NCBI GenBank assembly: GCA_021613335.1 | Contig: JAJTWR010000284.1 | Coordinates: 1,616,001 to 1,680,000, forward strand | Direction of reading: 5' to 3' | Length of the DNA: 64,000 nt | DNA from: Whitmania pigra | Lineage: Eukaryota; Annelida; Clitellata; Hirudinida; Haemopidae | Notes under the pieces: model-generated | What the model was told of the DNA's origin: nothing | The model's input: the letters and a program-made list of their open reading frames with translations, nothing else | Database searches by the model: none | Program-made: the position numbers and the translations under genes | In this document: piece by piece, positions 1 through 57,506 of the stretch | Position numbering within the stretch: position 1 is the stretch's first letter | Layout of the letters: every line of letters begins with the position of its first letter

Positions 1-102
1 TCCACCACCGCACTTAAGTACCTCCATACATTTTTAAAGTGACAGAACGTCTCAGAATACTACGAGTCTTCAACTCTGAACGTAAAAGCAGGATATAGAC
101 AC

Positions 103-14466: not shown

Positions 14467-14999
14467 CTACATGTCCATTTTTATTAATACCTGTGATTTT
14501 CATGATATGATTTGGCTCCGAGTGTTTGCTCATTTATTCTCAATCATCCACTCAGCTCCAATTGCTGGTCTTTCTTGTTATTTTGTGCCACTAAGAAGAG
14601 TGTGCTATCCACAAAAACATATTTTTCAAAGTACTTTCCATATTTTTGATACTTCTGCATATAACATTATTTAGTCATCATTTTGTGCACATTTTTGTAG
14701 TTTTTATTGAATAGAAATACATAACTTTCTGAAACAAAGAGTTTCAATATTTTCAAAATGTGTCGACCCCTACTATTTTTACATCTTAAATTGATAATTG
14801 GCCTCCGCCATAATTTTTAGCCCTTTAGCTATTGACTATAATATTGATTGAATTGAGTAAAATTGAACATATGATGAAAAAGCATTTATTGAATTGAATT
14901 CAGATAAAATGAACGTGTTAGATTAGCACGTTAAAATTTGAGGAATGCAAAATGTCTTGATAAAGATTAAAAATATGTTGTCAGTGAGTAATTGCAGAT
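14467..14999. other. Convergent 3' UTRs of FAAP24 and the collagen gene
   Basis: No gene. A minus-strand AATAAA (TTTATT at 14703-14708) lies about 290 bp past the collagen stop and is a good candidate for its poly(A) signal. I see no plus-strand canonical AATAAA for FAAP24, only variants. The open frame at 14321-14674 plus overlaps the last two FAAP24 exons in another frame and is not a gene. Confidence 0.45.
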
Positions 15000-15648
15000 C
15001 TAGGTGTATAAGTGGGTCCCACTATGGTACAGATCTTCATTTTTCATTTTTGCTTTTTTTCGAGGTACACAGTTTTTTGATGAGGTTTCACCAGGTGGTA
15101 CAACATTATCCTGCATCTCATTGACTTCATCGAAAAATTCCTCGAGCTGAAAAGAATATTTTTGAATGTTAAGAAAGAACCATTTTATTTTATCAAATGG
15201 CATGCTAAAAATTGAGCAGAAATGATGAACTCACATCAGAGTCATATTCATCAGATGAGAGTTCTTGACCTTCTCCATTAGACACGCCCTCTGATTGCTC
15301 CACATTTAGTGTCACATTCTGCTTGTAGGCATTTTCCTTTTCGTATTCTGATGCCGAAGACTGTGGCTTGGATTGATCATCATTTTGCTTAAGAAACAAA
15401 ATTATTTATGATGCGTTTCAAGAGCAAACTGATTATAGAATTTGATAAACTGTGCTTTACCACGACTCTGAAATGATTCTTAAGTTTCCTGAATGCCACA
15501 AACGATCCTATGATGAATGTCACTGTCATGAGAGCCAACCATATTACAAAAATGGCAGAGGCGATAAATAGTTTTGATTTCGTCTGGGTTATCTTTTCTC
15601 TTTGTAGTTTTTGCGCGTTGACGACGTCCGTATTGTCATCAACGAGGG
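15000..15648 (-). other. Collagen gene C-terminal block: membrane span and cytoplasmic tail
   Basis: Exons 15648-15461, 15387-15235 and 15146-15000 (residues 8895-9056). A short stalk ([19 protein letters not shown]) leads into one strongly hydrophobic span, [19 protein letters not shown] and onward to SFVAF, immediately followed by the basic FRKLKNHF stop-transfer. The 109-residue tail is first acidic and Ser/Glu-rich ([21 protein letters not shown]), then has a basic patch PRKKAKMK and ends in THLYT. With the N-terminal signal peptide this predicts type I topology with the collagen outside. The phase of the G/CC junction with the last collagen exon is consistent, so the tail is not a separate gene. 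I see no furin-type RxxR site in the stalk. Confidence 0.82.
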
Positions 15649-18600
15649 CTGAAAAATAAATAAATTAATTGTCGCATTCACTAGGCATTGTGACTCATAA
15701 ATTATTAAATATATCTATAAATATAGTCGATTTTAGTATTTTGACGAAAGCCTTACCTGCTGCTCCAACTCCTGCAGAACCCGGCCTTCCCTGAATTCCA
15801 GTGGCACCCGTTGCTCCAGTAAATCCTGTTCCACCAGTATAGCCAGTATATCCGGAGCTTCCAGTTGGACCCGTTCGCCCTTTAGAATTTTTACATTTGT
15901 GTTTAATTTGTTAAAAAAAAATCTTTTCAAGTGAATGCCATTCACTAATCAGTAGCTTTGTCTTTACCTGGAGGACCAGTATATCCCATGGGACCTGTTG
16001 CTCCCGGCATTCCCATATTTCCGGGTTCGCCTCTGGATCCAGCATTTCCTTTTGGTCCTTGAGGACCCTGCTGACCAGGCGACCCTGGACTGCCAGGTGA
16101 TCCAGGTTGCCCATCACTACCAGGATTTCCAGTAGGACCAGGAGCTCCCTGATTGCCAGCAGGACCAGCATAACCTAAAAATTTAAAGTTTGGCATAAAG
16201 TAAGAATATGTAATTATCTATCCATATTTTTTTGTATACCTTGGGGCCCCGGACGTCCTTCCTGACCAGTGAATCCTGTAAATCCTGGGGGCCCGACCAA
16301 ACCAGGAGCACCATATCCACCTTGACTGCCAGGATATCCAGATTGGCCTTTAGGTCCAATTGAACCTATCAAACCTGTAGCGCCAACAAGACCTGTTGCA
16401 CCTGTATAACCTGTTTGTCCTGCCGATCCACTTGGACCTGTTGATCCAGTGTCTCCTAAAATGTTGGAAATAACAATCGTACTGAAATTGTTCTTAATTT
16501 GTTAAATATTAGTTTGAAACAGCTACAGAAAATATGAATGTTAACACATACCTGGAGGTCCTGCAGGTCCAGGAATTCCTCGTTCACCTGGATTGCCCAT
16601 GGGCCCGGGGGCACCCAAAGGTCCCTGAGGTCCCGGTTGACCTTGCACACCAATGCTGCCAGCTGGTCCTACAAATCCTGTATATCCAACAGGTCCTGGT
16701 AACCCTGTAGGACCAGTAGGTCCTTGTTGGCCAGTGAAACCAACCTGTCCTGTCATGCCCGTATTACCAGTATTTCCTATTGGACCGACTTCTCCCGGTG
16801 AACCACGATCTCCCTGAGGTCCTATGGGGCCTGTTGGCCCAGGCAGACCTTGTGATCCAATATTACCTATATCGCCTCGAGGACCTTCAGGTCCTACTGG
16901 TCCAATAGGGCCAGCAATTCCAGTAGCTCCAACAGGACCTGGCTGACCCACAGGACCCTGTGATCCTTGAAATCCGGATGGACCCGCTAGACCTGTATCT
17001 CCTTGAGGTCCAAAAGGTCCTGGTGGACCAATTGGACCTTTGGGTCCAGTGGCGCCGCTTGACCCAGTATCTCCTGAAGGCCCTACATATCCAATTGAAC
17101 CTTGCGGCCCTACGGGGCCTTGAGGTCCAGTAGATCCTGTATCTCCCATTAAACCAGGCTGTCCTCTTTGACCTGGAGATCCTACTGGACCCTGCTGGCC
17201 CGCTTCTCCATCAACTCCCATAGGACCTCTTAGACCCTGACTTCCCATTGGCCCTTGAGGACCAATAGGCCCAAGAGATCCAGGCATACCTGTCGCACCT
17301 CTGGGACCTCCAGCTCCAGGCGGTCCATTAGGTCCAATCGGACCGGTTGGTCCTATAGGACCTGTATTTCCTGTTTCACCTGGATCGCCAACATCACCTC
17401 TTGGACCTAAGGGTCCTAGGGGTCCAAGTGGTCCTGCAGGTCCCGTTGCACCTACTGGCCCTTGAGGTCCCGGTAATCCCATTTCTCCTACTTGACCGGA
17501 AGGTCCAATATCGCCAGATGGTCCTGTTGAGCCTGTGGAACCTGTAGATCCTGGCGGACCCATTTGACCTATATCTCCTTTTGGTCCTCCTATGCCAGTA
17601 GCTCCTGTTGCACCAGGCAAACCCTTCAAACCTTGCTGCCCGAAATCTCCCTTTTCTCCCTTTGGCCCGGAAGCTCCGGTAGCTCCTAGAGGACCTGGAG
17701 GACCCTGAGGTCCTTGGTTTCCAAGCGGACCTGTTTCACCTGTATTACCGGGTAATCCAGGGCTTCCAACTGATCCAGGTTGACCAATTTCTCCTATTGG
17801 ACCAGTCGAACCTGTTGGGCCCGCAATTCCTGCCGTTCCTGGAAGACCCGGAGGTCCTATTGGACCAAGGGGCCCTTGAGGGCCAGATTCGCCTTTTGGT
17901 CCAGTGGCACCAGGCGAACCAATTGGACCTTCAATGATTGGATTAAGTTAGAATCAAAATCAAAATTGATCAAAATTATAAAATGCCTGAAAAGCCCCAT
18001 TACCTGCGGGACCAATCGGTCCGCCGTCACCTTTCGGTCCCTTTGGCCCTGTTGCTCCCTGAAAACCTGTACCAGGTGGTCCTACTGACCCAGGATATCC
18101 AAGAGGTCCTCGAGGACCGACTGGACCCGGTAAACCTGTATCTCCTTGTGGCCCTTGAGGACCCTGAGCTCCAACAATTCCAACAGGGCCTTTGGGTCCT
18201 TTCAATCCAGTGGAGCCTTTAGGACCTAGTGGGCCTGGTTGTCCAGGTGACCCTTGGTTGCCTGTATCTCCAGTGTCGCCAAGTGAGCCCTGAGATCCAG
18301 GGACACCAATGGGTCCAATGTTTCCATCCTGTCCAGTAGGTCCGGTATCTCCAGTTGGTCCGGCAGGACCACCTGTTCCCGGACTTCCAATGGATCCTGG
18401 TGAACCTCTGTCACCTTTCTGTCCTGCTAAACCTGTGGCCCCAGTGGCGCCTTTAGCACCAGAATTACCGTTTGGTCCCATTGGACCGCGTGAACCAGTG
18501 TCTCCAGAAGGGCCCTGCATTCCAGTAGCTCCCTGAATCCCTACAATTTAACATTAGTGAATTTACTTTTTTAAATTTGTAATGACATAATGAAAAATCA

Positions 18601-21600
18601 CTTTATTACTTTATTACTAATTTTAAATTTCTTACGGACAATTGGAAAGGGATACAATTGTATTTATTAAATTACCAGACTTAAAAACATTAGAAACTAT
18701 TTAATAATCGAAAAAATGGATTATGTTGTATTTTTGAATGATATTCAATATGTACCTTGAGGTCCTGAAAGCCCAACTTCACCCCTTGGACCAGATGCTC
18801 CAGGTTGTCCCGCGGGTCCAATCGAACCAGATGAACCTGTGGCACCTGCTGGTCCCACCGGCCCGACTATTCCATCATCTCCTGGTAAGCCAGGGACACC
18901 TGTACTGCCAGTATCACCTTGAGGACCCACGTTTCCAACTTGTCCAACCGCTCCACTAGAGCCAGTTCCTCCAGTATCTCCTGTCGCACCAGTTGGACCG
19001 GTTGCACCCATAAATCCAGGAGCACCAGATGGGCCTTGTAGACCCACTAAACCGGGAATTCCTGCTGCCCCTTGGGGACCCTGGGCGCCAGGATAACCAA
19101 TAGGACCTTTGGGTCCAGGTGCACCCGATGGCCCAAGACTCCCTGGAGCTCCCGGTAGACCAATATCTCCAGGGGGTCCAGCCGAACCCGATTGACCAGT
19201 GTCACCCGGAAGACCTTGATTTCCCTGCTGACCCTGAGGACCAACTGATCCTATCTCTCCGGTGAATCCCATTGGACCCGCTGGACCTGTGGCGCCATTA
19301 GGTCCAGGAAGACCAGGATTACCTATTGATCCAACAGGACCCTGCGCTCCAGTCGATCCTTCAGACAAAAACAACTATTATTGAACCTATTTGACATTGT
19401 GACAGGGTTTACTAGTTTAGGCTTTTGCATTTACCAGTTGGTCCCAGCAGGCCAGTTTGTCCTTGTGGACCTTGAGGTCCCTGCTGACCAGACAGACCAG
19501 TTGCACCCGTATCTCCTACTGCTCCGATCGGACCTGGAACACCGGGCGATCCAGCTGATCCCATATCTCCTGGCTGTCCTTGAGGACCCGAGAATCCGGT
19601 GACTCCTTTCATTCCAGTCATTCCCTGCGAACCAGTACTTCCAGTTTGTCCAGGCTGACCTGGCAGACCGATCGCACCTGTCGCTCCGACACTACCGGAG
19701 ATTCCCGGCTGCCCAGCGGCGCCATCATTACCAGGTTGACCAGCCGGGCCAATCTGCCCGGTTCGACCAGGAAGACCAGGCGAACCCGTATCTCCTTGTG
19801 GACCGATCACTCCAGTTCCACCAATCGATCCAGTTGGTCCTTGTGTTCCTTTTGTGCCCGGCTGCCCAGACAAACCGGGCTGACCATTGGGTCCGGGAGA
19901 ACCTTGTGAACCAGTCAGACCTCTTGGTCCAGTTGCGCCAGTGGAACCAGAAAGACCAGGAGCGCCAGGTGAACCATTAGCCCCTTGAGGACCAGTAAAT
20001 CCTGTTTCACCTTTAGTTCCAGTGATGCCAGGAAGTCCTTGAAAACCTTAAAAACAAAATAAAACCAATTTTTATGACATACATTACTTTAATACAAGTT
20101 TATAATGTAAAAACATGATGCCTGAAATTAACCTTGTGATCCCATAGGTCCCTGACTTCCGCTTTCGCCGGTTCCCCCTTTAGGTCCTTGAAGTCCAACC
20201 ATACCTACAGATCCAAATGGTCCTGGTAAACCGGCATCTCCCGTCGAGCCAGGAAGACCTGAGATGCCTGTTGCACCGGTAGCTCCGGGCTGTCCCATTG
20301 CTCCTGGATCGCCAGATGGCCCAACCGGTCCCATTGCACCAGTATCACCGACAGCTCCACTTACTCCGGATTCGCCTTGAGGACCTTGCTGACCTGTAGC
20401 TCCCGTACTTCCTTTTGAACCACTAACTCCCATGAGACCTGTCGCACCTCTAACACCAGGTGCCCCCGATGGACCAGGTGAACCCGTATTTCCCGTTGCT
20501 CCCGTCATCCCAACAAGTCCCTGAAGGCCATTTTGGCCAACTTGACCTTGTTGACCAACGGGTCCAGGGTCTCCAGTATTGCCTTTTGATCCTGATAAAC
20601 CAGGAAATCCAGTTGCACCTGGGGCTCCTACAGGTCCAGCTAAACCAGTGTCGCCCTTCTCTCCTTGGGGACCTGTTATTCCTTGTATTCCTCTCATTCC
20701 TTGATTTCCTGGTGATCCTGCATCACCAGCCGGACCAGGTGTGCCGGATGATCCTGCAGCTCCAGTAGCACCGGGCTGTCCAGCTTGGCCAGGAGATCCG
20801 ATGCTACCGGGCTGACCGGGAGAACCTTGTGCTCCCATACTTCCTGCAAGTATGGTTTAATAAATTGTTTATGGAAATAAATTGTTTATGGACATTAATT
20901 GGTTTTGTTCATATCCAGCATTCTAATAACGTCACTTCCTGTTTTCACAGAAGTTCACCATTGGAAGGAAAATATATATTGCCTCTTTAACAAGAGAGAT
21001 AAACGTATTTCAACCTGGTATTCCACTTTGTCCTGGCTGCCCTGGAAAGCCAGATTCTCCTTTAGGTCCTTGACTTCCTTTAGTACCCTGAGGTCCAACG
21101 TTTCCCTGTAACCCAGGAAAACCTTGTTGTCCTTGATCTCCCATTAAGCCTTTAGCACCTAATATTCCTTGTTGGCCTGTTGCTCCTTTAAGACCTTGTG
21201 AACCACGATTGCCAACGGAACCAATGTTGCCTTTTGGTCCTGGGCCTCCCGAAGCACCTGTGGCTCCTTGAGCTCCCTGCGAACCTGGAGAGCCATTATT
21301 ACCGGGCTGACCCGCATTTCCTCGGATACCCTTGGCGCCAGTGGCCCCAATTTCCCCAACAGCACCCTGAGACCCTGGTAACCCGGCAGATCCAGTTGCA
21401 CCGGTGGCGCCTGGAGCTCCCATTTGGCCTTGATTGCCTGGTGAACCAGGTTGTCCCAAAGGCCCTGAAATTTGAGAATTAGTTAGATTAATTTGCCAAT
21501 AAAATAAATCTATCAATCTTGCCTTGGGGTCCAGTAGATCCAGTTGACCCAGAAGGTCCTTGGACTCCTTGAATTCCTTCTTGTCCTCTTTGTCCTTGAT

Positions 21601-24600
21601 TTCCAACTGAACCTTGCAATCCAGATAAACCTACAGCTCCTACATCGCCCGTGGCACCATTGCTTCCCGGCACCCCAACGGAGCCATCTTCACCCATAAA
21701 GCCAGTGTCTCCATTTGGACCAGGAGCTCCCGGAAGTCCGGGCTGTCCCATGAAGCCCATCTGTCCTGGTTGACCTGTAAAGCCAGTTGAACCCTGTTGT
21801 CCATTTTGTCCTGGGATGCCCGCAGGTCCCTGATCTCCTCTTTGCCCAGGGCTTCCACCGATACCCGGTTGCCCCTTAAAACCTGTTTCGCCAGTCGTAC
21901 CCTGTAAACCCGTTGCACCCGTTTGTCCAGAACTACCTGTGAAACCAATTTCGCCCTGAGGTCCTGTAAATCCGGGAATTCCAGGTTGGCCGGAAATCCC
22001 AGTTGAACCGGTGTCACCTCGAGTACCTGGAGCACCCTGAAAACCTGATTCTCCTTTCAAACCTGTTGCTCCAGGCACACCCTGAGAACCGGTAAAACCT
22101 CTTTGTCCTGCCGGTCCAGGCGATCCTTGTTGTCCTTGCTGACCCGGTAAACCTGGCTGGCCGGGATTCCCGGAAGACCCGGTCGAACCTTGTTCGCCAG
22201 GTGCTCCTATAGCTCCTTGTTGGCCGAGTTGACCTGGAGCTCCAGTGCTTCCACTGGACCCCCTTTGTCCAGGATTACCATCGGCTCCCGGAGATCCTTT
22301 ATAGAATTAATACAATGAATCTGTGTTGAACTTGTCTTGATAGCAATGAAAATATTGATAATTTCATGTCACCTCTGCATATTAAATACACATTATGGAA
22401 ATTTTGTAGCTGCCCTAAAACATGGTGGTTTTAATTTAAAATTTACCTGGATTTCCTGGACTTCCTGTGTCTCCCGTAGCACCTTGAGAACCTTTTGCAC
22501 CTTGATTACCGGGCGATCCAACATCTCCTCTCTGCCCTCGAACTCCTGTAGGTCCAGAAGCACCTGTTTCACCAACGCTACCTGGCTGACCGTCGGGTCC
22601 TGGCTGGCCCGTTCCACCTTTTTCTCCACTCAAGCCTGTAGCTCCCGCTACACCTTTTTGACCTTGAACACCTGGATTTCCTGGTTGACCTGTAAAACCC
22701 GTCGGTCCGGGTAATCCGGGCAAACCTGGTGAACCCTGTGAGCCATCATCTCCTCTTAGTCCAGCGGGGCCTCTTGGCCCTTGGGCACCTGGAGAACCAG
22801 AATCACCTGCAGGCCCTTGCTGACCCGAAGGGCCTGGAGCACCTACTTGACCAGCTTGACCTGTGTTACCTTTTGAACCTGGTAAACCTGGTGCACCTTG
22901 CAGACCTATATACAATTTTTAGGCGTGATAACTTTATAATTTAACAATTTATTTTTTAGATTTGATATGATATTATTGACCTGGTTGTCCTGTAAATCCC
23001 ATTTCTCCAATTGATCCTTGCTCGCCTGGTGAACCCGTGTCTCCGTTTGATCCTTTTGGTCCTTGAGGTCCGGGCATTCCACTTACTCCAGGAGAGCCTC
23101 TCAGACCTTTAGCACCAGATTCGCCTAAAAGCCCTGGTGCTCCGGTTGGACCAACTGCTCCAGGCGATCCCGGCAAACCATTCGCTCCCGAAGAACCTGT
23201 AGCGCCTGTAAATCCTTGAGGGCCTGGCGATCCTTGAGAACCTCTATCCGCTGAAGGTCCTGGGGGTCCTGGGAGCCCCTGCTGGCCTAAAGTTCCTTTA
23301 TCACCAGTAGAACCTGTGAAACCTTGAATACCAGTAGGTCCGGAGTTTCCGAGGAGACCCTGATCACCCTGCAATCCAGGTTCTCCTTTTATTCCAGGTT
23401 GGCCGGGCTGGCCAGGACTTCCGATGGTGCCTGTCGGACCCATTGGTCCGGTGTCACCTGTTGTACCAGTGGCACCAGGTTGCCCGACATTGCCACTAAA
23501 ACCGGTGGCTCCTGGAGCTCCAATTGGACCTTGGCTTCCTTTTTGACCTGGTTGCCCTTGAGGACCTATTGGACCTAATCACGGAATGATAGTATTTGTA
23601 ACCTGAGGAAATCTTAAGGATCTGCTATTTTATTATATGGTATGTTATGAAAGAAATTGCTAACCTCTCTCTCCAGGCTGCCCGGTTGAACCTGGAAAAC
23701 CCGGAAGACCCCTTTGCCCTTGGGATCCAGCTTGCCCAGGAAATCCCAGAGGTCCAGTGGCCCCTTGAAGTCCTCTTTGACCAGTTGCACCAAACAATCC
23801 TGTATTGCCTTGCATTCCAGGAGCTCCTATGGGACCCTGAGCACCGGGATCGCCAGCTGATCCAGGATCGCCTTTTTCTCCTTGAAGACCAGGCAATCCC
23901 AATTGCCCCGCCTGTCCTTGAGGACCAGGTTGACCAGTCGATCCCTGAAAACCGGGAGCACCTTGTATTCCTTGCATTCCAGGTTGACCTTGAGCGCCAG
24001 GATCTCCTCTTTGTCCAATAGGTCCTGTGTCACCCATGGAACCAGTAGATCCAGGTTGACCCTGAGGCCCTGGTTGTCCTGGATTACCAGGCAAACCGCT
24101 CTCCCCTTGCAATCCCGGTTCACCGTTTAATCCAGGCACACCAACTGCACCTTCTAAACCGAAGGCTCCTGGACTTCCTGGTGAACCAATTGATCCGGGA
24201 AGACCCTGACTTCCAAGCTCTCCTTTAGAGCCTTGGAGACCTTGCATGCCCTGCTGCCCAGGATTTCCGGGCATTCCAACATCTCCACCAAGACCCTTTT
24301 CTCCTTTTGTTCCAGTCTCTCCTGGTGTTCCTGGCTGTCCATTTGCTCCTGGTGAACCCATTGGTCCAGGGGATCCTTTTAATCCGATAGGTCCCTGATT
24401 TCCCTGTTGACCCGGTGCCCCGGGATTACCTTTTGGACCTGCATCACCTCTTGGACCCTGAGGGCCCTCAAGACCTGATGCACCTGATGGTCCTTGAAAT
24501 CCAGGTTCTCCTTTCTGTCCTACTACTCCAGGTATTCCTGTTGCTCCAGTGAAGCCTGTGTTACCTGACATTCCAGTAGCTCCTGTTGATCCAAAATCTC

Positions 24601-27600
24601 CAGAACGTCCTTTAGATCCTGCTTGACCCATATTCCCAGGTTGTCCTGAAGTTCCAGCTGCTCCTGGTGAACCTTGAGGACCCAATTCGCCTGTATATCC
24701 TTGTCCTCCTGTGGGTCCTGTGTCTCCGGTATTTCCCATAGTTCCTTGTAAACCTGGTAACCCTGGAGAACCTGTAGGTCCTATCATGCCTGGCAGACCA
24801 TCAAATCCGGGCAAACCACTTTCTCCAAATGTTCCTGGCTCTCCAGGCTGTCCTGTTGCTCCAGGAGAACCTGGGTTTCCTCTGGCACCCGATTGGCCAG
24901 GTGCTCCCTGAATCCCGCTTTGTCCACTTGAACCAGTGTCTCCTCTAGAACCAGGCTGTCCGGCGGGTCCAGTAGCTCCTTGAAACATATGTGTTTGATA
25001 AACATAAATTTCATTTCTAATATATACTATATTAAATTTATTTTTTTATTTACCTTGGGGCCCCTGAAAACCTTGTTGTCCATTTTGGCCTGAAATACCA
25101 GGAAGTCCCTGCAAACCGGGAAATCCTTGAGCACCAATATCTCCTTTTACTCCCTGAGAACCAGTAGAACCGGTTGAACCAGTATCTCCTGGTAGACCAT
25201 TTAAGCCAGTTGCTCCTTGAATCCCACCAATACCAGGAGCACCATTTGAACCTGGATCACCTCTAGGACCTTGATTTCCCTGAGTTCCTGTAGAACCAGT
25301 TGCCCCTGGTAGACCAGCTGTGCCAGGAGCACCTGAAAATCCGGTGAAACCTTGCTGCCCATTAAAACCTGGAGCACCACTAGGTCCAGGTGTTCCAGTC
25401 AAACCCTTAGGACCCTGGGGTCCGACTTGCCCTGGCTGGCCGTTATTTCCTTGTTGACCAGGTAGTCCAGGAGACCCCTTAGCACCAGTTGGACCTGACA
25501 CTCCAGGAGTTCCTACATTAGGTCATTAACTTTATTAATAAATAAATTAGTAAGAATATGCTTTTCGATTTTTCAAGAAATATATTTTTGGACAAGTTAA
25601 AGATTTTAAAATTATATTTTATGCATTTATCTAAATATATCATTGCATTACAAATTATCTGGAAGTAGAAGAAACCGGGTACCTGTGCTGCCAGTCGATC
25701 CCTGCAGCCCTTGAGAACCAGATTCTCCTTTGGGTCCTTGATTACCTTGACTGCCAATGGATCCTTTTTGTCCAGTAGCTCCTGCAGCACCAGTATATCC
25801 TGTGTCACCTTTGGAACCTGGTGTTCCTGGTTGACCGGACATTCCTGAAGGACCTTGTGGTCCTTGATCTCCAGCAAGTCCCGGAAGTCCACTGATACCC
25901 TGCGCACCTCTTGTACCTTGCTGCCCAGGCTGTCCTAATGCTCCTGTCAAACCTGTATTCCCATTAGCACCTGGAACTCCAGAATCACCTGGGGATCCGG
26001 TAGCTCCAGGATCTCCAGCTGGACCTGTATCTCCCGTTGCTCCCGTTGCACCCTGAGAACCAGGACCACCCACTGATCCAGATTCCCCTTTTGGTCCTAC
26101 AGGGCCCGTGGCTCCTTGAGGTCCTGCGCCACCTCTAATTCCAGGCGCACCTTTTTGGCCAGGTTGTCCTAAATTACCGGGGGAACCTTTTAATCCAGGT
26201 TGACCTGGTTGGCCATTAGCACCCTGAGGACCAGATGGACCTGTGTCACCTGTTGCTCCTTGTTGACCGGGCGTTCCTTGTTGACCTAAAATTTTTAAAG
26301 ATTTGATATTGATTGTGATATCTTAAAGCAAAAAGACCATTCAATCAATTTTGCCTATTACCAAACCTGGTTCTAATTTATATAAGCATCGGTTATTTTT
26401 ACATTTCGAGTACGAACAACTATTTTTTTTTTAATTTGACAGAAACTGACAAGACTCAGACTTCAAGCTTTTTAAAGTAAAGAAATATTGTTTAATTAAT
26501 CTCACCAGGTAAACCAACACTTCCAAGGGAACCGACTGATCCCATTTCTCCTTTTCCACCAGAATTTCCTGTTGCTCCAGTGGCTCCGGGTTGACCTGAT
26601 TGACCTGACTGACCCCGTGCTCCTTCCAAACCGGTACTTCCGGTAAATCCTGTTTCTCCTTGTAAACCGGTAAACCCTGTATTTCCTGTAAGACCAGTAA
26701 AGCCGATTTCTCCATTAGGACCTGGCTGACCGACTGGACCCTGCTGACCAATTTCTCCTGTTGTACCAGTTGCTCCTTGTATTCCGGAAGCTCCAGAATT
26801 TCCTTTGGTGCCCGTATTTCCTGTGAAACCAGTGTCTCCAGGAAGTCCCTTAGGGCCGGGGACGCCTTGTGGACCGACTGATCCTGGAGAACCTGGTTGA
26901 CCACTAGGTCCTAAGTTACCAGGTTGCCCAGGTCCTCCTGCTGCTCCTCGAGCTCCTGGAGTTCCACTTTGCCCTTTCGAACCTTTAAGACCTGGTTGGC
27001 CTTGTTGACCAGGATTACCAATCAAGCCAACAGGTCCGCTGATTCCAATTTCTCCTTTTTGTCCGCTTGGTCCTTGAACTCCGGTGGAACCTTTGAAAAT
27101 TACAAATTTATAAGATAAGTAATAATAAAATTATGATACAATGATTTACGAGATGGAAGTCAAACCTTGAGGTCCAGTGACTCCTGTAAATCCTTGAAAA
27201 CCTTGCTGACCGGGAGATCCAGCGTTTCCTGGGGAACCTGGATTACCTGACTGGCCCGGGGTTCCAGGAGATCCGATTTCTCCTCTCTGACCTTGACTTC
27301 CTGTATTGCCAGGGGTTCCAGAAAGCCCAGAAAATCCGGTATTTCCAGATGATCCAGTATCGCCTGTAGCACCAACCATCCCAGGCTGACCAGTATACCC
27401 AGTCGACCCTTGACTTCCCATTCTACCTGCATCACCTGTTGCTCCTTGAACACCCGTCGGGCCTGTGGGACCTGTTGAACCTTGATCTCCAACGGATCCG
27501 GGTTGACCTGCAATAAAGGAATTTTTAAACTAACGAAAGTATAAGGATATAGCAACGGGCATGCTCTTTGAAGAAACATTCATTAATTGCTAATTTGCTG

Positions 27601-39600: not shown

Positions 39601-42600
39601 TTTCATACCTTCTTGTCCCATTTGACCTTGTTGACCCGGTTGACCCTTGCTGCCAGCATTACCTTGCAGACCGGATTGTCCTGAGCAATAGAAATAATAA
39701 TGTAATAACACTTTGAAAAATATTTAAGTAACTTTCATATTAAGTAAAAATTAAATATTGGCTCTGATTAAATATTTTATAAGTAATTTTTCACCTGTCA
39801 ATCCTTGCAATCCAGAACTTCCTTGTTGTCCATTATCTCCAGTAGCACCAGTGAATCCTGTAAAACCTGTGGCCCCTTGTACACCCTGAAAACCACTATT
39901 GCCCGTAACTCCTTTGGCCCCTTGAGGACCAGGTTGGCCTGGCATTCCTGTGTCACCTGGCTGCCCAGATAATCCAGACTGACCCGGAACTCCTGTTTGT
40001 CCAACATTTCCTTGTTGTCCTAAATTGCCAGTTGCTCCTTTACCACCTCCCGGACCGCTAGCTCCCGTTGATCCTCTATCACCCTGTTGTCCTTGTGGCC
40101 CTTGGTCTCCGACAATACCCTTCTGACCCGTGGCTCCAGTTGGTCCACTTGAGCCTAAAAGAATATTACTCAAGTCATAACTTTGCAGCAATAATTTTGA
40201 AAATCCGTACTAAATATTTACCTTGTTGGCCCATAGTACCAGTACCTCCAGTCGCTCCTTTCACCCCAGACTGTCCTTGAACTCCCTGTGAACCTTGCGA
40301 GCCACTCTGACCTTGCTGTCCCATAAATCCAGTTATACCAGTTGCACCGGTGGCTCCTGCCACTCCAGTATCTCCCGATGAACCTGCAGTTCCCTGCATT
40401 CCCAAAGTCCCTGTTGGTCCAGTGGCCCCTTGACTTCCAGGTAGCCCTTTAAAATAATTTGCTTGTGTTTTTATTTATTTTACTTTAACTATCTGATAGA
40501 CAAAAATGATTTTTGAGACGCCGTTTTATGCCCCTGTGTATTAGTTGCTATTAAATTTTTTAATATGTAGAAATGCACACTATACATAAAATTAACCTGT
40601 GGGCCCAGATTGTCCAGTATTTCCGAGTGAACCTGGCTGCCCTACCGGACCTGCGACTCCTGATCCGCCTGGCGATCCAGATATACCTTTAGGTCCAGGC
40701 ATTCCCGGAGAACCATCTAATCCTGTTAAGCCAGTTGCTCCTGTGCTCCCTTTTCCGCCTGGCATTCCAGAACTTCCGGACGGTCCTGCGAAACCTGTTG
40801 CTCCGGTTGCTCCGGTCTCTCCAGCAGAACCGGGATTTCCAGCCTGACCGCTATTACCTGTGGGGCCAGTAAAACCTTGAAGACCTGGCATTCCTAACTG
40901 ACCTTGGTTTCCTTTGGTTCCTTGTTGTCCTGTCTGACCCGTAAATCCTTTTTAAGAAAATCAAACTGTTAATTACTAGCCCTCTCAAAAATTAGTTTTT
41001 CATATTCAAAAGTCCAACCTCTAGGTCCAACTTGCCCTTGAGCTCCTTGCGATCCTTGTTCGCCTGGTGATCCAGAAGGTCCAGGTAATCCAGACTGTCC
41101 AAGAGAACCAGTGGCCCCTGTAAATCCAGTGTCGCCTTTCAGACCTGTGGCACCGCTTGAGCCAACGGAACCTGGTGTACCACTAGATCCAGTGTATCCT
41201 GTAGCCCCTGTATATCCAGCCTGCCCTGGAACTCCAGACAAACCTTGGAAAGAAAAAGGTTAAAACCAATTTAAAAACAGCTCACAAATTCTAATGATAA
41301 TTATGTGTCATAATGTTTATTCAAGCTCATTTAACACAAATTAAGAATATTTTATTATCCAATATGCGATTATCTTTAAAATTAATGAATCACCCGATTG
41401 TCCTTGGAATCCCGTGTTTCCAGTTGCTCCAGTAAAACCGGTGGAGCCCTGAACTCCAATAACTCCGGGCGTTCCAGTTGCTCCAGTCGCTCCAGTGTCT
41501 CCTGTCCTGCCTGTAGAACCACTTAGACCGGAAACCCCCATGCTTCCTACCTGGCCGGATGATCCTGTTGCACCAGTACTGCCGGTTACTCCACTAACGC
41601 CTGTGGTACCAGGTGCTCCAAGTAAACCACTCTGTCCCTGTGCTCCTGTATCGCCCATTTGGCCTGGTTGACCTGTTTGTCCTATTGCTCCGGAAACTCC
41701 AGAGCTTCCCTTGAAGCCGGTGGAACCCGTTTGGCCTGTGCCTCCTAAATAAAAATAATCATTATTAGAATATTTTAGACGTTTTATTATACCAGTTTTA
41801 TGGGTAAGTAGTTTGGTTTGTTGCTTAGTTTAGCAAAGTTTATTTTTTTTTTAATAAAAAAAAAGAGACAAGTTAATTACCTTGCATGCCCTGCTGGCCA
41901 CCAGTTCCTGATTGACCAGTGCCTCCTTTTGACCCATCCATACCACTGGGTCCTTGAAGACCTGTTGCTCCGCTCACTCCATTTGCACCAACCTGACCTG
42001 GCAAACCTTGAGATCCAGTAGACCCGGTAAATCCCTTTGCGCCCGTGGCACCAGTTAATCCTAAAAGGCCAGGGGCTCCAGATTGACCGGGTGTACCGGT
42101 TGGACCTTGTAGATTGAAATTTGGTTAATAATTAGATTAATTAAAAATAAAAGAATTTTTTATATTACAATGCAATTATTCAATAAATAAAACTAAAAAC
42201 ACAAAATTCCAAAGAAGAAACCTTGCATCCCAGGTGTTCCAGGTGAACCCTGAGCGCCGGCAGGTCCCGGCGAACCCTGCGAACCTGGTTCACCTTGAGA
42301 ACCAGATTGGCCAGATGGACCTTGTATACCCTGTTGACCTGTAAATCCCGTAAAACCCTGGACACCTGATGTACCTGGCTGACCTGGCTGACCATTAGGC
42401 CCCGATCTACCCGCTTGGCCAATCATGCCAGGATCGCCTTGAAGACCAGTTGCCCCTAGGTTTCCAGGCTGACCAACGTTTCCAAGAGGTCCCGTAGAAC
42501 CTTTAGCACCTGTTGCTCCAGGTGTGCCTATCGATCCCTGCTGACCTTGTGGTCCAAGTTGTCCTTGCAATCCTTTGGGAAACGTTTTAAATATTCTCTG

Positions 42601-45600
42601 ATATCACAAACTTATGTAAAAATTATGTAAATTACAATTATATTATATTTATTTTAAATTAAATAATATCAATACCTATTTGACCAATCTGCCCTGTACT
42701 TCCCTTTGCTCCGGAAAAGCCTGTAGCTCCAGTGGAACCGCTAGGTCCCACCTGGCCCCTATTTCCTAATGCACCAATTTGGCCAGTATCTCCCGTGTAA
42801 CCTGTGAATCCAGTAAAACCTTGAACTCCCTTATTTCCTGTGCTTCCAGTTGCACCAGTTTGTCCCGTTGTACCCGTTGAACCTGTTGCCCCAGTTGAAC
42901 CTAAAAACGTGAGTGAATTAAATTTATACAAGTCCACACAACATCAACAACGAACTGAAAATTTGTAAGAGTTATAATATATGGGGTCTTCAAACTTTAT
43001 CCTAGTAGAGCAACAATTATATTATTATTGGTATTATTATTATTATTACTGATATTATCATTATTACCTGTTGCCCCACTCATTCCGGATGATCCGGGTT
43101 GCCCAGGTTGACCTGAAGCACCAGGTGAACCTGGTGATCCTTGTTGACCTCTTTGTCCAGCCAGACCAGGCATTCCTGTGAAACCTGAAGATCCAGTGCC
43201 CCCGGTTCCACCAGTAGCACCTGTTGCTCCGGTAAATCCTGAAACACCACTCATACCTTGAATTCCTGATGAACCTTGAGGACCCGTGGAACCTTGAAAT
43301 CCTCGTGGACCTGTGGCGCCCACTACTCCAACTTGACCAGGAAACCCTGTAATACCGTTGGATCCAGTTGGGCCTGCTGACCCTACGGCTCCTTGAAAAC
43401 CAGTTGCACCAGTAAAGCCTGTTCCTCCTTGTGATCCTAAATTTTACAGATTCCTTTAGCTAATTTAAAATAAATAAAATGGAAATAAATGACTTAATTA
43501 TAACTAAATGGAAATTTTATAACCATTAAAATAAATTTTCAATTATAAACTCAAACCAGTTAAAAATTCAATTATTGACTTGTAACATATTGGATGCGAA
43601 ATGTAAAACGAAACCTTGCAATCCCGAAATTCCCGGCTGACCAATCCTTCCAGGTTCTCCCGATGCACCTGGTAATCCAGGATATCCCGTTGCTCCAGGT
43701 AATCCAGTATTTCCCGGGCTCCCAGGTAGTCCTTGCGAGCCCCGTCCACTTTCTCCTTTTGGACCCCGAGGTCCGGTAGCTCCCTGATCTCCTAGACTTC
43801 CCTTCGGCCCAGTTCCTCCTTGGGGGCCAGTTTGTCCGGGGGATCCAGGTGTGCCAGGCGATCCAGGGCCACCACTCGAACCTGTATATCCCTGGGTACC
43901 TGATGGTCCTACAAAACCTGGCTGTCCCTGTTGGCCATTGTCACCTGTAGCTCCAGTTGATCCGGTACCTCCAGTAAATCCTTGATTTAACGAAAAGTTC
44001 ATTAGAAAATTATGTCCTAAGAATATATTAAAATTTAAAGTTACCTTGTACTCCTTGTTGCCCTAAGTTACCAGCAACTCCTGTAGGACCTTTGATACCT
44101 GTGGCTCCAGTGGAACCAGTAAGTCCGGTTGTTCCAGTAGCTCCGGGTTGTCCATTGGCTCCAGAAGGTCCTGGTGAACCGGCATTACCAGGTGCGCCCG
44201 AGGGACCCGTTTGACCCGTTGCGCCGACTACTCCGGTAATCCCAGATACTCCACTCGGTCCAGAAAATCCCTTTGGACCTTGTTGTCCCGCTTGGCCTGG
44301 CTGACCTGGTGTGCCTACATTTCCTTTTGGTCCTGGTTGACCTGACTGTCCACTGGGACCTTCATTAATTCATAAAGTTTTTCACTTAGGGTTTTCGGTT
44401 CCGAATTTGTTTACTTTTCCACAAATTACCTGCAGGGCCAGTTGTTCCGGTCCCGCCTGTAAAACCTTTGGGTCCTTGAAGTCCAGAAGGCCCCGAAGAT
44501 CCTGTCTGACCAGTTGATCCCGTACTTCCTGTGAACCCAGTTTGACCTTTCAATCCAGGTGATCCCTGAGAACCTGATGAACCAGGTGAACCAGATGATC
44601 CAGTTGAACCCGTTGCGCCTTGGGGTCCTTGAATTCCTTGAGTACCTGATTGACCTAGAAAAAATTAATAGAATCATCAATTCAAAAACTCCAAACATTT
44701 TCGGTTGATAATATGTTGATAATATTAAGCAACATTAATAGTATCAATCAGGTAAAAATAAATATCTTTACCTTGCGGTCCTGAAAAGCCGGTACTTCCA
44801 GTATTGCCCATATCGCCCGGCAATCCGGTATATCCAGTTGATCCAGCCGAACCAGTGAATCCCAATTGACCTGTGGCGCCAGTAAAACCAGGTCCGCCAG
44901 TGGCTCCCACATCTCCAGTTGCCCCTTTGGCGCCAGATATTCCACTTGCACCAGATGGCCCACTAAGGCCACCAGTTCCCTGAAGTCCAGGGAATCCTTG
45001 AACTCCTTTTGGGCCTGCACTGCCGGTTGACCCTGTTGGACCAGATAAACCTGGTTGGCCCATCTGACCAGGTGAGCCGGGCGAACCACTCAAACCAGGT
45101 AGTCCAGGTTGACCACTAGTTCCTAAAGAAGGTTTTTATAACAATAAGATTAGAAATATCTAAATGCTGTTTTAAAATAGGATGAGTAGAAAATCGGTCA
45201 GCACCTGGTAAACCTCCTTGCCCCGGAGAGCCAGCGAATCCAGGTTGACCTAGATTTCCTGGAAGTCCAGGAAGACCAGGGAATCCGTTTTGACCATCAG
45301 TCCCTGTGGGTCCTGTGAAGCCTTTTGTACCGTCCTGTCCAACGACTCCTGATTGTCCTTGAAGCCCAGTAAAACCAGTCGCACCCTTTGAACCCTGTGG
45401 ACCTGTGACTCCACTATAACCATATGACATTGATCCAGTTCCGTAACGGCCTGCTGGGCCTGTTGGTCCTTGAGGTCCAGGCTGACCTGGAGAACCTACA
45501 GGTCCAACTGCCCCGGATAAACCTGGTTCACCTAAAGGTCCAGTGTCTCCATCTGGTCCTTTTTGACCAGGTAATCCCGAATATCCTAGGATGTAAAATA

Positions 45601-48600
45601 TTTGGCGATTCATTGACATCAGCAATGCTTACGAACACTCGAAATATACAATAATAGTTTTAATATAATCCTGTCGTTTGTCTATCACACAACAATGTAA
45701 TTCTTCATCTTAATATGGTTCCAAAGAGGATTTTTTTCTTTTGAAGCAGACCGTGAACAATTAAAATTAAATAATATTTAATTTCCTAACTCACCAGTTG
45801 ATCCTTGCGATCCCATACCTCCTGGGCTACCAGCGTTACCTTGTGGTCCTGATGGTCCCGTAGGACCTACCTGACCAAGCGGGCCGGTCATTCCAGAAAT
45901 TCCAGGTTGTCCGGGTTGTCCCATGGAACCAACCGATCCTTGCTGCCCAGTTAAGCCAGTGCCTCCCGTGACACCTTGGCTACCAGATGGTCCAGATAGA
46001 CCCGTGTATCCTGTATCGCCTTGAGGTCCAAGCGGTCCCTGAGGTCCTGGTTGTCCTGAAGGACCAGAAGGACCAGTCGCACCGGTGAATCCTGTGAATC
46101 CTGGAGCACCACCTTGGCCAAATTGTCCTGGTTGTCCAATTGATCCTGGGGAACCAATATTACCTGTCGACCCGGTTGCGCCTTGTTGCCCTGGATTACC
46201 GGGAAAACCTTGTACACCTTGGTCCCCACCTTCGCCTATTTCGTAGAAACTCAAATTATTGATTAGGGATTTTAAGATTTCTTTTACTTATTTTAAATTT
46301 GTACGTTGACCAAATATAAAATGATTAATTTCGATTTTCACTCTACTATTCTGGTAACTAATTAGTAGTTTTAAAATTAAACTACTTTTAATGACTTGCC
46401 TGGACTCCCTGTTGAGCCAGTAGCTCCTGTAGAACCCTGAGGTCCAGTTTGTCCTTGGTTTCCTGTTGCTCCTTGTGAACCAGCTTCTCCTGACTGACCC
46501 TGTTGTCCAGGAGCTCCTTGAAGACCGGGCTGGCCCATCGTTCCGGTAGCGCCTGGCGAACCTAAAGGACCCGGCTGCCCATTACCACCGGGAGAACCCG
46601 GCGTTCCATTCGGTCCAGGTTGGCCCACAGGCCCAGATGGTCCAGAGGGCCCAGTTGATCCTTGAAACGTTTACAATTTATAATTCAAAAACATACAAAA
46701 TAAAAATGAAATGCGGTTAATCTATTCAACCATAATTCACAATAGGTGAAAGTAGATCTTTCTTACCTTGAGGTCCTGTAAATCCAACACCACCAGTCGC
46801 CCCTACAGGACCTGGAACTCCTTGAGATCCCTGTTGTCCTGTCGCCCCGGTTGGTCCTTGAGATCCTGACTGACCCCCTGCTCCTGGTGATCCCGAAGAG
46901 CCAGTGAATCCTGTAGCTCCGGTGTTGCCTGGAATACCGGTCAACCCAGACTGTCCGACACTACCTGAAGGCCCGAGTTGCCCTGGTTGACCAGTAGCAC
47001 CAACCGAGCCAGTAAATCCTTTCACTCCAGATTGACCTGTTGCTCCCGTGGCTCCAGAAAATCCAGTAGAGCCCATTCCTCCAGTATTTCCAGTGTAACC
47101 TGGTACTCCGCTAGGCCCTAAGAGATATTTGAAGTTAATGATTATTTGTTCAATCAAAAATTTTAATTAATTACATTAATTACCTTGTGATCCGATAAAG
47201 CCAGTTGATCCTGTCGCACCAGTTGCTCCCGGAGAACCATTACTTCCCGGAAAACCAGTGGCTCCGGGTACTCCTGCTTGTCCAGGTTGTCCAGTAAAAC
47301 CGACCCCACCTTGCAATCCACTTGGGCCAGGGACTCCATTTAATCCAGGAACGCCTGGCTGTCCTGGGTTGCCAGTAGATCCCTGTTGACCAGAAGCCCC
47401 CTGGGGCCCAGGCTGGCCATTAAATCCTATTGACAGAAATTATTAAAATATTAAAATATATTAATATAACATAAATCATTCGAACTATGAAAAGCCTGAT
47501 ATCGCTTTAAACACAATTTGATTGTCACTATGCAAACATCATTTAGACTTTATTATTCAATAACACCAATTGTGTTTTACATTTTTACACATTTACCTGT
47601 GTCTCCTTTTCCTCCCGCTGGCCCTGAAGGTCCGGGTTGACCACTTGGACCTTGCTGACCCTTTCCGCCAGCAGCGCCATATTGACCGGTATTTCCAGAC
47701 GCGCCAGTAGCACCTGTTGATCCCTGAACGCCCTGGAAACCAGGTGAGCCGGCGTCACCAGGTTGCCCTTAAATTATCCAATTAATCAGAATAGTTGATT
47801 CAGTATTTGTAAAGATTGTATTAGTACCAGACTGCCCGGTGAAACCCTGAGGTCCTTGAGGTCCTTGAGGTCCTGGTCCCCCAGGTTGGCCCATAGCTCC
47901 AGAAGGACCAATAGGACCAGGCTGGCCGGTGTATCCTGTGTTGCCCAACGGACCGGGTTGACCGACTTGACCTGATGGTCCAGATGATCCAGTGGCTCCA
48001 GGAAGACCACTAAAACCAGTGTCACCCTGAAGTCCAGGCGATCCAGTACTTCCAGACGAACCCGTACTGCCTTGCATTCCTTTTGATCCGGTGCTGCCTG
48101 TAAAACCTGTGCTGCCCGTGTTTCCTTGAGGTCCCGAAGATCCTGTAAAACCTTGCTGCCCTTGATTTCCGGGAGATCCTGGTTCTCCTGGTTGCCCATT
48201 GGATCCCGTAGGACCAGGCTGACCATTCTGTCCTGGTTGACCATTTTGTCCTCTAGGGCCCGTAGGTCCGATAGGTCCAGGTGAGCCTGTTTGTCCCGTA
48301 AATCCAGTTCCGCCAGGTGACCCAGGCTGACCGACTGAACCTTGTGGACCTATTGGGCCAGTAGGTCCTGGCTGGCCAGTCTGACCTTGATTTCCCGGCT
48401 GTCCGGTGGGACCCGTAATACCGGTAATCCCAGTTTGGCCTGGAATATTTGATTATAAAACCATAGTTATGACAAAAACGTAATACTTTTGCCATACGTC
48501 TTTATAGCATAAGTATAAGTTTACACTTGTATGTATTTCTATGTATCATAAATTAATCCTTAACCTGCTTGTCCGGTCATTCCTACTGGTCCAATGGGAC

Positions 48601-49696
48601 CTTGTGATCCACTCATTCCAGTTGCTCCCTGCTGTCCTGGAAAACCTTGTGATCCAGTGTTTCCCAAAGGACCGGGTATTCCAGTAGCCCCTGTAGGTCC
48701 TGTATCTCCCGGAGGTCCTATTTGTACTGAAATAAAAATATTTCTTGTTGTTTACGAATGGAAAGACGATTAACGACTCATCTTTTACCTACCAATTGTT
48801 GGACACAACACGGTGGCAAGATTTCCAACATTGGCCGAGAATGAGCCAAGTTGTTCGTAAGGGATATATTGCACGCTCCCTGGTGAAGAGGCGATTTGTT
48901 TCAGGTGCGTCAGTGGAACATCGGGAGAAATGGATATTGGAATAATTCGGATCCTTGAATTTTTCATGATGTTGGCTTGGAGGATGGTATAGCTTACGTT
49001 GTCCATTCTGCTGTTGATGAACGCCAGCACCACCATCGATGTGTTCAGAGGATTAGTGACATTTCGAGAATTTGATAGGAAGTCGTCGTAAGCCACCTGT
49101 TTACAAGGGTTTAAAAAAATATGGATCGAGTCAGTCTACACAGTTAAATTGTTTTGATTAATTTGTTCTAATGAGAATAGATCGAACCACAAGGATAAAT
49201 TTTTCAAATGCAAATGCTCACATCTAAGCCTCCAGCTAGATTTGATATCTGCTGGTCTGTTGATCTGTAAGATTCCGAATTGATGATGTTCCGTACAGCA
49301 TCGAGAGTTGTGCCACTTCTTAAGCTCAGTCTCAGCCGCCCGGAGGAATCATAGTAGGCAAAGCCAACGTGGGTACCCGTGTCGCTGATGGGATACAACT
49401 GGTCGATGGTGCTGACGATGTTATTGATGCCTTTTTTTGTATTTGACCAGTCATCTTCGGTCAAATACAGTTTGACATCGAGGAGAATCACGACATCCAA
49501 AATTCCTTTGCAACCTGTGAGTTAACAGACATTCTAGTTTATTTAAATTATACACTCGACAGATGAAATTAGTCTCTCGATTACCATTTCTCTGAGCGAC
49601 AATCGAGATCCCGCCAAATGTCAGTAAAATAAAGACCGTGAGGAAGATGAGGTTTGATCTTCGATCACCGCTGATTTTAAATTTTTCCATCTTCAT
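15000..49696 (-). CDS. Giant vWA-domain transmembrane collagen, probable annelid cuticle collagen
   Basis: Sixty-five coding exons join in one frame to 27,171 nt, or 9,056 aa, with start at 49696 and stop TAG at 15000-15002. Layout: signal peptide 1-about 35; von Willebrand A domain about 42-233; Gly-X-Y helix from about 240 to 8890 (about 2,880 triplets); transmembrane span 8921-8947; cytoplasmic tail 8948-9056. Y positions are rich in Thr, Pro, Gln and Ser; there is no Cys in the helix. At 0.286 nm per residue the helix would be about 2.48 micrometres, the length known for annelid cuticle collagens (Nereis, Riftia, about 2.4-2.6). The role would be forming the long unbanded fibres of the epidermal cuticle. 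The start ATG directly follows an acceptor (tttcaccag/A-ATG), so a 5' UTR exon is likely upstream. The exon list is given in the four block entries. An alternative is a non-annelid giant collagen of another spiralian. Confidence 0.88.
15757..32988 (-). other. Collagenous exons, C-terminal part of the helix (26 exons)
   Basis: Exons in transcript order: 32988-32530, 32460-31429, 31320-31006, 30940-30509, 30416-30084, 29965-29426, 29338-28448, 28378-27974, 27807-27682, 27507-27166, 27090-26506, 26285-25683, 25512-25054, 24978-23665, 23574-22981, 22905-22447, 22296-21523, 21464-21015, 20843-20133, 20046-19435, 19358-18756, 18540-18004, 17928-16552, 16455-16240, 16174-15968, 15879-15757. Together 14,499 nt. 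Exons are larger here (mean about 558 nt against 348 nt upstream). The 1,377-nt and 1,314-nt exons each encode over 140 consecutive triplets. Interruptions occur in 32460-31429 and 18540-18004. The last exon ends the helix and closes with GVGAAA. The 22296-21523 exon uses a GC donor. RGD occurs in several exons. Confidence 0.85.
21465..21522 (-). other. GC-AG intron in the collagen gene
   Basis: On the minus strand the exon ends CCCCAAG and the intron starts gcaagatt and ends tttcag, 58 bp in all. The phase (split Gly codon) and the exon length (multiple of 9) both require this junction, and no GT alternative keeps the frame. Confidence 0.75.
40222..42900 (-). repeat. Alternating 225/351-nt collagen exon array
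   Basis: Seven consecutive exons have lengths 225, 351, 225, 351, 225, 351 and 225 nt (42900-42676, 42572-42222, 42105-41881, 41744-41394, 41243-41019, 40947-40597, 40446-40222). The same pair appears again at 45122-44772 (351) and 44654-44430 (225). This suggests past tandem duplication of a two-exon unit of 576 coding nt. At the residue level the copies are no longer obviously alike to the eye, so the duplication would be old. Confidence 0.6.
46236..46399 (-). other. Second GC-AG intron in the collagen gene
   Basis: The exon ends AGTCCAG and the intron starts gcaagtca, the strong consensus form for a GC donor; the acceptor is cgaaatag/GCGAAGG. The Gly-codon phase fits only this choice. Confidence 0.72.
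48793..49696 (-). other. Collagen gene N-terminal block: signal peptide and vWA domain exons
   Basis: Exons 49696-49585, 49514-49222 and 49096-48793 (residues 1-236). The first gives a basic start and a hydrophobic run [18 protein letters not shown], read as a cleavable signal peptide. The next two encode a vWA-like fold: the first strand DVVILLDV (44-51), the HVGFAYYD strand, a [12 protein letters not shown] helix, a VVLAFINSR strand, and RIRIIPISI near the end. Cys39 and Cys233 bracket the domain and could form the usual disulfide. Three sequons follow each other (NVT at 147, NTS at 153, NVS). The first MIDAS motif DxSxS reads DVKLY, and the strand that normally supplies the metal-coordinating Asp reads AFIN, so metal-dependent ligand binding is doubtful. 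Confidence 0.85.
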
Positions 49697-55362: not shown

Positions 55363-55426
55363 CTCTTCAGGAAGTAACTTCCTTGACAATATTTGTATAT
55401 TGCAAGCTCTGAAAGATGGTTTTGAA

Positions 55427-57130: not shown

Positions 57131-57506
57131 CTGCAGCTCCCTCAGGAATTCTATGAGGAACCTCGTCCTCAGAGTTGGTACATGATATGCTGCTCAATAG
57201 CATGTCCCCAAACAATGCTTGTACTTTCCCATCATCACGCTTCCAATTGCTATAATATTTTTTCCTGGCATTTAAAGTGTTTTCCACTCCCAATGTTTCA
57301 CACAACTTTCCGTAGAGACCGTCATCTTTAGTGTAAGTGGACTTGTTTATGATATTTACGTTTCTCTCTATAGTTAACAAGGCTGATACAAATAACGAAG
57401 GATCGAACTTAGCTTTGGAAGCCATTCTAATACAATGATTAGTGTGGAGCGGATAAGAGCGGATAGAATAAGAGTGAATTGCAGCTGCTCGAGGTAATTG
57501 TACCAA
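57084..57506 (-). pseudogene. 5' part of the transposon ORF, interrupted by the retrotransposon
   Basis: A 140-aa ORF; an internal Met at 57425 (MASKAKFDPSLF) looks like the true start. It contains a compact helical region ending KKYYSNWKRDDGKVQALF that I do not recognise, followed by an acidic linker. It runs into the reverse transcriptase insert and stops at 57084. Its position and strand fit the beginning of the same protein as the Ulp1-PHD ORF. Confidence 0.5.

Follow-up and report, generated by a model that had tools for sequence, protein, structure and literature searches.

The minus strand of a 64,000-nucleotide stretch of DNA (C235:1616001-1680000, referred to hereafter as the window; C235 is the label of the contig) carries at positions 49696-15000 a single gene for a single protein, a collagen of 9,056 residues. 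We consider it probable, from the sequence of this gene and its relatives, that C235, as the gene is also called here, specifies the full chain of a giant annelid cuticle collagen that is synthesised as a type I membrane protein. The genome, assembled as 178 Mb in 381 contigs, contains at least four further giant collagen genes in two matched lengths. Across the long class, comparison of the predicted chains indicates that the helix residues are nearly unrecognisable as related, yet the layout is intact. With three full chains modelled, the composition, ends, anchoring and secretion of a rod 2.5 micrometres long become testable.

Structure of the C235 gene and its product

Open Gly-X-Y stretches cover the whole of 49696-15000 on the minus strand. 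A dynamic-programming splice model for Gly-X-Y, with both ends finished by hand, joined them into 65 exons totalling 27,171 nucleotides, in which the sole stop codon is the terminal one. A preliminary description of the window, made by eye, had reported 65 exons with proper splice sites and with phases that sum to a multiple of three; the model agreed and returned exactly 9,056 residues, and the internal stop codons that had been named as grounds for giving up a single gene are absent from the joined frame. Introns range from 58 to 237 bases and have a G+C content of 0.248, compared to 0.543 for the exons. All 64 acceptors are AG. The introns are of the GT-AG type in 62 of 64 cases; the two GC-AG introns follow exon 9 (46236-46399, donor GCAAGT) and exon 53 (21465-21522, donor GCAAGA, 58 bases), and the second is supported by a 774-nucleotide exon in each of two related genes, C110 and C183. 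Phase 1 was found for 61 of the 64 introns, which in the helix fall between the first and second bases of a Gly codon, and phase 0 for the three introns after exons 2, 63 and 64. An initial model of 9,003 residues, in which exons 18540-18004 and 22296-21523 were too short, was dropped in favour of the present one. C110 has exons of 537 and 774 nucleotides, the lengths of the two corrected exons, and it guided one of the corrections, that of the 774-nucleotide exon.

The product has the order of parts that had been described, namely signal peptide, vWA domain, Gly-X-Y, membrane span and tail, as judged by Pfam, hydropathy and the splice model. Exon 1 (49585-49696) contains the start codon and the signal peptide by direct reading, the model and hydropathy, with one of the two hydropathy peaks of the protein at about residues 14-36. 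The vWA domain (residues 44-209; Pfam PF00092, E=1.2e-11, 45.6 bits against a curated cut-off of 23.8) is divided between exon 2 (49222-49514), also identified by alignment with C110, and exon 3 (48793-49096), which meet at a phase-0 junction; a single-exon profile search of the genome did not list this two-exon domain. A Collagen match above the curated cut-off (E=4.5e-15) was obtained when the first 330 residues were scanned. The helix begins at residue 240 in exon 4 (48565-48726) and continues through exons 5-62 to residue 8892. It comprises 8,653 residues, in good agreement with the earlier estimate of about 8,650, or 2,881 triplets with seven short interruptions. The rise of a collagen helix is 0.286 nm per residue, which gives a computed length of 2,475 nm. 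Exon 63 (15461-15648) supplies a juxtamembrane stretch, a span at about residues 8917-8950 (the second hydropathy peak) and basic residues after it, as indicated by hydropathy and by alignment with the C-termini of C110 and C183. The predicted tail of about 106 residues includes an acidic, putatively cytoplasmic part in exon 64 (15235-15387) and ends in exon 65 (15000-15146) with a TAG stop at 15002-15000. About 110 bases past the stop lies AATAAA (14885-14890, minus strand), the first of four within 600 bases and a candidate polyadenylation signal. The protein has a mass of 821 kDa and cysteines at 39, 233 and 9034, none of them in the helix. Thirteen RGD tripeptides occur in the helix at residues 3503-8604, with none in the first third; they are possible integrin sites, counted without a chance comparison.

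The metal site of vWA domains, MIDAS, has the motif DxSxS together with T and D. Alignment of the two predicted proteins indicates that the vWA domain of C235 has lost this motif, reading DVKLY for DxSxS, S for T and N for D, and that the vWA domain of C110 keeps it intact (DSSSS, T and D). The best match of the C235 domain in the PDB was weak (E=0.1), with a collagen VI chain at E=0.91; a collagen VI chain also matches the C110 domain in the PDB. A protein search with the vWA end of C235 found none of 567 candidates at E<=1, and the same search with the C110 end found one vWA fragment (P0001, E=5.4e-7) that is not clearly collagen. Within the genome, the C235 domain first matched the exons that encode it; its matches to other vWA modules were no better than E=9.2e-6. 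The nearest of these lie among tandem vWA modules at C310:2299469-2311750 (minus strand). At C340:1863286-1887841 (minus strand) vWA and collagen exons are intermixed, and further vWA collagens are possibly located there.

Helix length and intron layout in related chains

Four further loci with collagen matches were fetched (50 kb each) and modelled from splice rules alone. The count of giant collagen loci is a lower bound, with 150 of 1295 PF01391 candidates scored at 0.01; a PF01391 profile search at E<=1e-12 gave no matches. Two of the loci belong to the same length class as C235. C110 has 62 exons and encodes 9,017 residues, with a vWA domain (Pfam E=4e-28) that keeps MIDAS, a helix of 8,649 residues, a span and a tail. 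C183 has 66 exons and encodes 8,788 residues with a helix of 8,633, a span and a tail; it has no vWA domain, and its signal peptide passes directly into Gly-X-Y. The three helices are thus within 20 residues of one another. The C-termini of C110 and C183 align weakly with that of C235 (28% and 23% identity, helix end included), and the C-terminal regions of C235 and C183 have WLALMT in common.

The helix of C235 and that of C110 are divided in nearly the same way. Of their 59 and 57 helix exons, 47 have the same length in the same order (1000 shuffles: mean 14.7, maximum 20), and for C183, with 63 helix exons, the counts are 18 against C235 (shuffle maximum 14) and 19 against C110 (shuffle maximum 15). 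When introns were matched by distance from the C end of the helix, with 60 shuffles of exon order per pair, 53 of the 58 helix introns of C235 coincided with introns of C110, which has 57, 48 of them with zero offset and five at 12 nucleotides. For C235 and C183 (63 helix introns) 39 were matched in three offset blocks, and for C110 and C183 the number was 38. The two genes of a shorter class, C184 and C330, had 16 matched introns, of 36 and 20, at a single constant offset. The resulting scores were 51 (C235-C110), 35 (C235-C183), 34 (C110-C183) and 16 (C184-C330), compared to shuffled maxima of 7, 5, 4 and 5, respectively.

The X and Y residues gave a very different picture. With exons as anchors, X/Y identity was 15.5% for C235-C110 (shifted mean 14.1%, maximum 16.1%), 12.4% for C235-C183 (mean 13.2%, maximum 15.4%) and 15.7% for C110-C183 (mean 14.0%, maximum 16.9%); none of the three pairs reached its highest shifted value, and one fell short of its shifted mean. 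A banded gapped alignment, which chooses its own gaps, raised X/Y identity to 17.5-18.1%, where the background had means of 13.2-13.8% and maxima of 14.6-15.3%; for C235-C110 the figures were 18.1% and a mean of 13.7%. Since X/Y identity is near background, the homology of the chains rests on intron positions and on the alignment of the ends rather than on helix residues. The three helices were also aligned with MAFFT, but that alignment was rejected because it placed 510-530 gaps in each chain. The identities based on it and its nonsynonymous-to-synonymous ratios (dN/dS) of 0.24-0.30 were discarded as well; synonymous differences were saturated at 0.70-0.72.

Interruptions number seven in C235, six in C110 and ten in C183. 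All three chains share three sites, at 1,247/1,243/1,246, 4,258/4,251/4,256 and 7,992/7,985/7,972 residues into the helix (C235/C110/C183), and two further sites are common to C235 and C110. Length has been kept while sequence drifted, and this suggests, from the predicted chains, selection on length in molecules that assemble in register. Several observations count against such a reading. Introns in the same alignment column numbered 9, 5 and 5 by MAFFT and 20, 26 and 12 exactly in the banded alignment, with 9 and 20 for C235 and C110, low counts that we attribute to arbitrary alignment gaps. Seven of the ten interruptions of C183 lack a counterpart in both of the other chains. Shared ancestry alone could also give equal lengths and equal intron positions; common descent accounts for the layout, but not obviously for the absence of length drift.

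The same comparisons bear on whether the gene is real as modelled. Repetitive Gly-X-Y DNA is prone to misassembly, and several adjacent collagen genes, or a repeat artefact, might have been joined by a forced model; the authors who described giant collagens in Alvinella voice the same worry about their own chains (PMC12403961). For C235 this explanation is highly improbable. The reading frame is kept through 64 introns with no stop, and C110, on a separate contig, repeats the exon layout. The X/Y sequences of C235 and C110 are too different for copies that are likely to be confused, and away from the loci themselves nothing in the genome strongly matches the C-termini of C235, C110 or C183 (next best E=0.24, E=0.23 and none, respectively). 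Matched lengths in sequence-diverged genes on separate contigs argue against an assembly artefact, and they bear in the same way on the doubt over the Alvinella giants.

Splice modelling alone gave helices of 5,187 residues for C184 and 5,180 for C330, with four and five interruptions, respectively, the first four at near-matching positions. The ends of these short-class chains were joined by hand. The two heads align, and neither has a Pfam match; in the head alignments the C330 row probably retains about eight intron residues, and in one of them the last 14 residues of C184 are in a wrong frame, neither of which affects the helix counts. A motif, LRLQVWRP or IRLQIWRP, is found in the short-class heads. 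After the helix, C330 has EGF-like modules (FXa_inhibition, E=7.7e-18), then a span and a tail, and by eye the end of C184 reads the same way. A third locus, C342, of which the head end alone was read, has a related head that runs into Gly-X-Y. When the C330 head was searched against the genome, C330 and C184 were recovered and C342 was missed, which indicates that such searches undercount. Outside this genome, the short-class head has a relative in P0002 (323 residues, 42% identity over 83%, E=3.1e-33); its head passes unbroken into Gly-X-Y, and its contig is 1,200 bases long, as would be expected of a spliced transcript.

Probable cuticle affinity, and proposed assembly and anchoring

Work on annelid cuticle collagens as proteins goes back decades, and the purified molecules are about 2.4-2.6 micrometres long. 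The computed 2.475 micrometres of C235 falls within that range, so the size argument of the preliminary description holds. Threonine in C235 occupies 25.1% of Y positions (723) and 3.7% of X positions (107). The other giant chains have the same bias, with X and Y values of 4.3% and 30.9% in C110, 3.8% and 27.3% in C183, 3.4% and 38.9% in C184 and 4.1% and 37.2% in C330. Proline in C235 amounts to 12.5% of X and 19.4% of Y. The assembly also contains five matches to the erythrocruorin-linker family PF16915, four of them above the cut-off, a family that we take to be annelid; PF16915 had no match in 14 control genomes, those named being bacteria and archaea, a set that does not address annelid specificity. 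Threonine at Y, helix length, PF16915 and hydropathy together support, at the level of DNA, the reading of C235 as an annelid cuticle collagen with a vWA head and a type I anchor. The features reported for annelid cuticle collagens (Gaill 1995, Mann 1996, as cited in PMC11766948) are a very long helix, a globular domain and threonine-rich Y positions. C235 shares the long helix, has a globular domain at the N-terminal end of the helix in its vWA head, and agrees in the position of threonine, whose glycosylation would follow by analogy. To what is known of those proteins the present genes add a full gene, both ends, a C-terminal anchor and matched paralogues.

Some points weigh against assignment to the cuticle. 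Threonine at Y was scored in giant chains only, with no ordinary collagen of the same genome as control. C183 lacks a vWA domain, which means that some long chains do without the head, and no relative of the C235 vWA end was found among the 567 candidates from other sources. In PMC12403961, no siboglinid collagen of such length was found, and the five longest chains there have 33-40% proline at X and 22-33% at Y, well above C235, although the counting patterns differ. A giant membrane collagen of another tissue, such as basement membrane, gut lining, cocoon or egg coat, would fit a tissue assignment drawn from sequence, and a vWA domain beside a helix also occurs in collagens VI and VII and in FACITs. 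Helix length and threonine at Y both agree with what is reported for annelid cuticle collagens, and we regard a non-cuticle collagen as unlikely.

On the reading that C235 is a cuticle collagen, the signal peptide would take the chain into the endoplasmic reticulum, and the C-terminal span, as hydropathy and the basic residues after it suggest, would anchor it in the membrane and leave about 106 residues on the cytoplasmic side. The spans and juxtamembrane stretches may gather three chains, after which the helix would zip outwards from its C end to a computed length of about 2.48 micrometres, with seven interruptions. Threonine at Y could be glycosylated and stabilise the helix, as its composition and the reported Riftia cuticle collagen would suggest. 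The vWA head would then stand 2.5 micrometres from the membrane and might connect molecules with one another or with other matrix.

Helix lengths within 20 residues make one heterotrimer of C235, C110 and C183, in register, the likeliest arrangement. Extending this to both classes, we tentatively propose, at somewhat under an even chance, that giant collagens with type I membrane anchors make up the cuticle as two heterotrimers, each of them obligate and drawn from three genes. The longer, of about 2.48 micrometres, would combine C235, C110 and C183; the shorter, of about 1.48 micrometres, would combine C184, C330 and C342, with a head domain that has no name and with EGF-like modules close to the membrane. 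Register would hold each chain to its length while X and Y residues drift almost freely. It is also quite possible, though we doubt it, that each long chain forms its own homotrimer, in which case the equal lengths would be a matter of inheritance and not of co-assembly. The similar exon layouts of C110 and C235 could simply preserve an ancestral length, the three chains have unlike heads (a vWA domain with MIDAS in one, a vWA domain without it in another, no vWA in the third), and most C183 interruptions are not shared by both partners. Set against this, X/Y identity has fallen nearly to background while the helix has stayed within 20 residues of about 8,650, which suggests selection on length, and three interruption sites are common to the three chains.

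The function of the span is a separate matter. It may serve only as a device for trimerisation or export, with the mature collagen cut free and the cuticle not tethered by it, and to this we give very nearly an even chance. A motif check found no RxxR between the helix end and the span of C235; the check did not extend to other proteases.

Collagens VI, VII and FACITs carry vWA beside the helix as C235 does, but the helix of C235 is many times longer, a span is present and the vWA domain lacks MIDAS. The MACIT collagens XIII, XXIII and XXV also have a membrane span. According to PMC4678570 they are type II proteins, anchored at the N-terminus, and none was found in Annelida, whereas C235 has a signal peptide, a C-terminal span by hydropathy and a far longer helix. 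The closest counterparts in chain length are annelid: 8,859 residues in Alvinella, 8,689 in P. pandorae, 8,413 in P. grasslei and 7,719 in P. fijiensis, besides one collagen from Eisenia andrei (PMC12403961). These are described there by length and proline content, with misassembly called hard to rule out; neither domain layouts nor sets of chains appear in the collagen section, and searching the text for von Willebrand returned nothing. A literature search, with most subscription papers outside it, found no annelid cuticle collagen gene with both ends, topology or matched chain sets.

Helix exons and other features of the window and assembly

Exons 5-62 of C235 and their introns occupy 15757-48439. 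On the minus strand, exons 5-7 lie at 48439-47828, 47767-47597 and 47426-47184; exons 8-14 at 47117-46767, 46660-46400, 46235-45795, 45585-45205, 45122-44772, 44654-44430 and 44359-44045; exons 15-21 at 43980-43615, 43436-43068, 42900-42676, 42572-42222, 42105-41881, 41744-41394 and 41243-41019; and exons 22-28 at 40947-40597, 40446-40222, 40154-39795, 39680-39429, 39363-39121, 38993-38733 and 38657-38370. Exons 29-35 follow at 38221-37781, 37546-37034, 36878-35925, 35687-35292, 35095-34583, 34523-34083 and 33895-33545; exons 36-42 at 33331-33071, 32988-32530, 32460-31429, 31320-31006, 30940-30509, 30416-30084 and 29965-29426; and exons 43-49 at 29338-28448, 28378-27974, 27807-27682, 27507-27166, 27090-26506, 26285-25683 and 25512-25054. 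The last helix exons are 50-56, at 24978-23665, 23574-22981, 22905-22447, 22296-21523, 21464-21015, 20843-20133 and 20046-19435, and 57-62, at 19358-18756, 18540-18004, 17928-16552, 16455-16240, 16174-15968 and 15879-15757.

Just upstream of the collagen gene, 54172-57141 (minus strand) is probably a retroelement, with one open reading frame for a Ulp1 protease and PHD domain (54172-55431) and another for a reverse transcriptase (55561-57141). Between them and the collagen gene, an open frame of 199 residues at 51768-52367 (plus strand) is rich in charged residues and has a sub-threshold Pfam match, to DUF2959, only. A GDP dissociation inhibitor domain (E=6.2e-20) is encoded by an exon at 14-382 (minus strand). 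Elsewhere in the assembly, a hirudin profile gave one match (positions 1-19, 28.8 bits, cut-off 25), a hint of a leech that was not used in the argument. Four COX1 matches, on C115, C49, C360 and C47, have uninterrupted standard-code frames of 542-715 residues, from which the assembly probably includes bacterial contigs.

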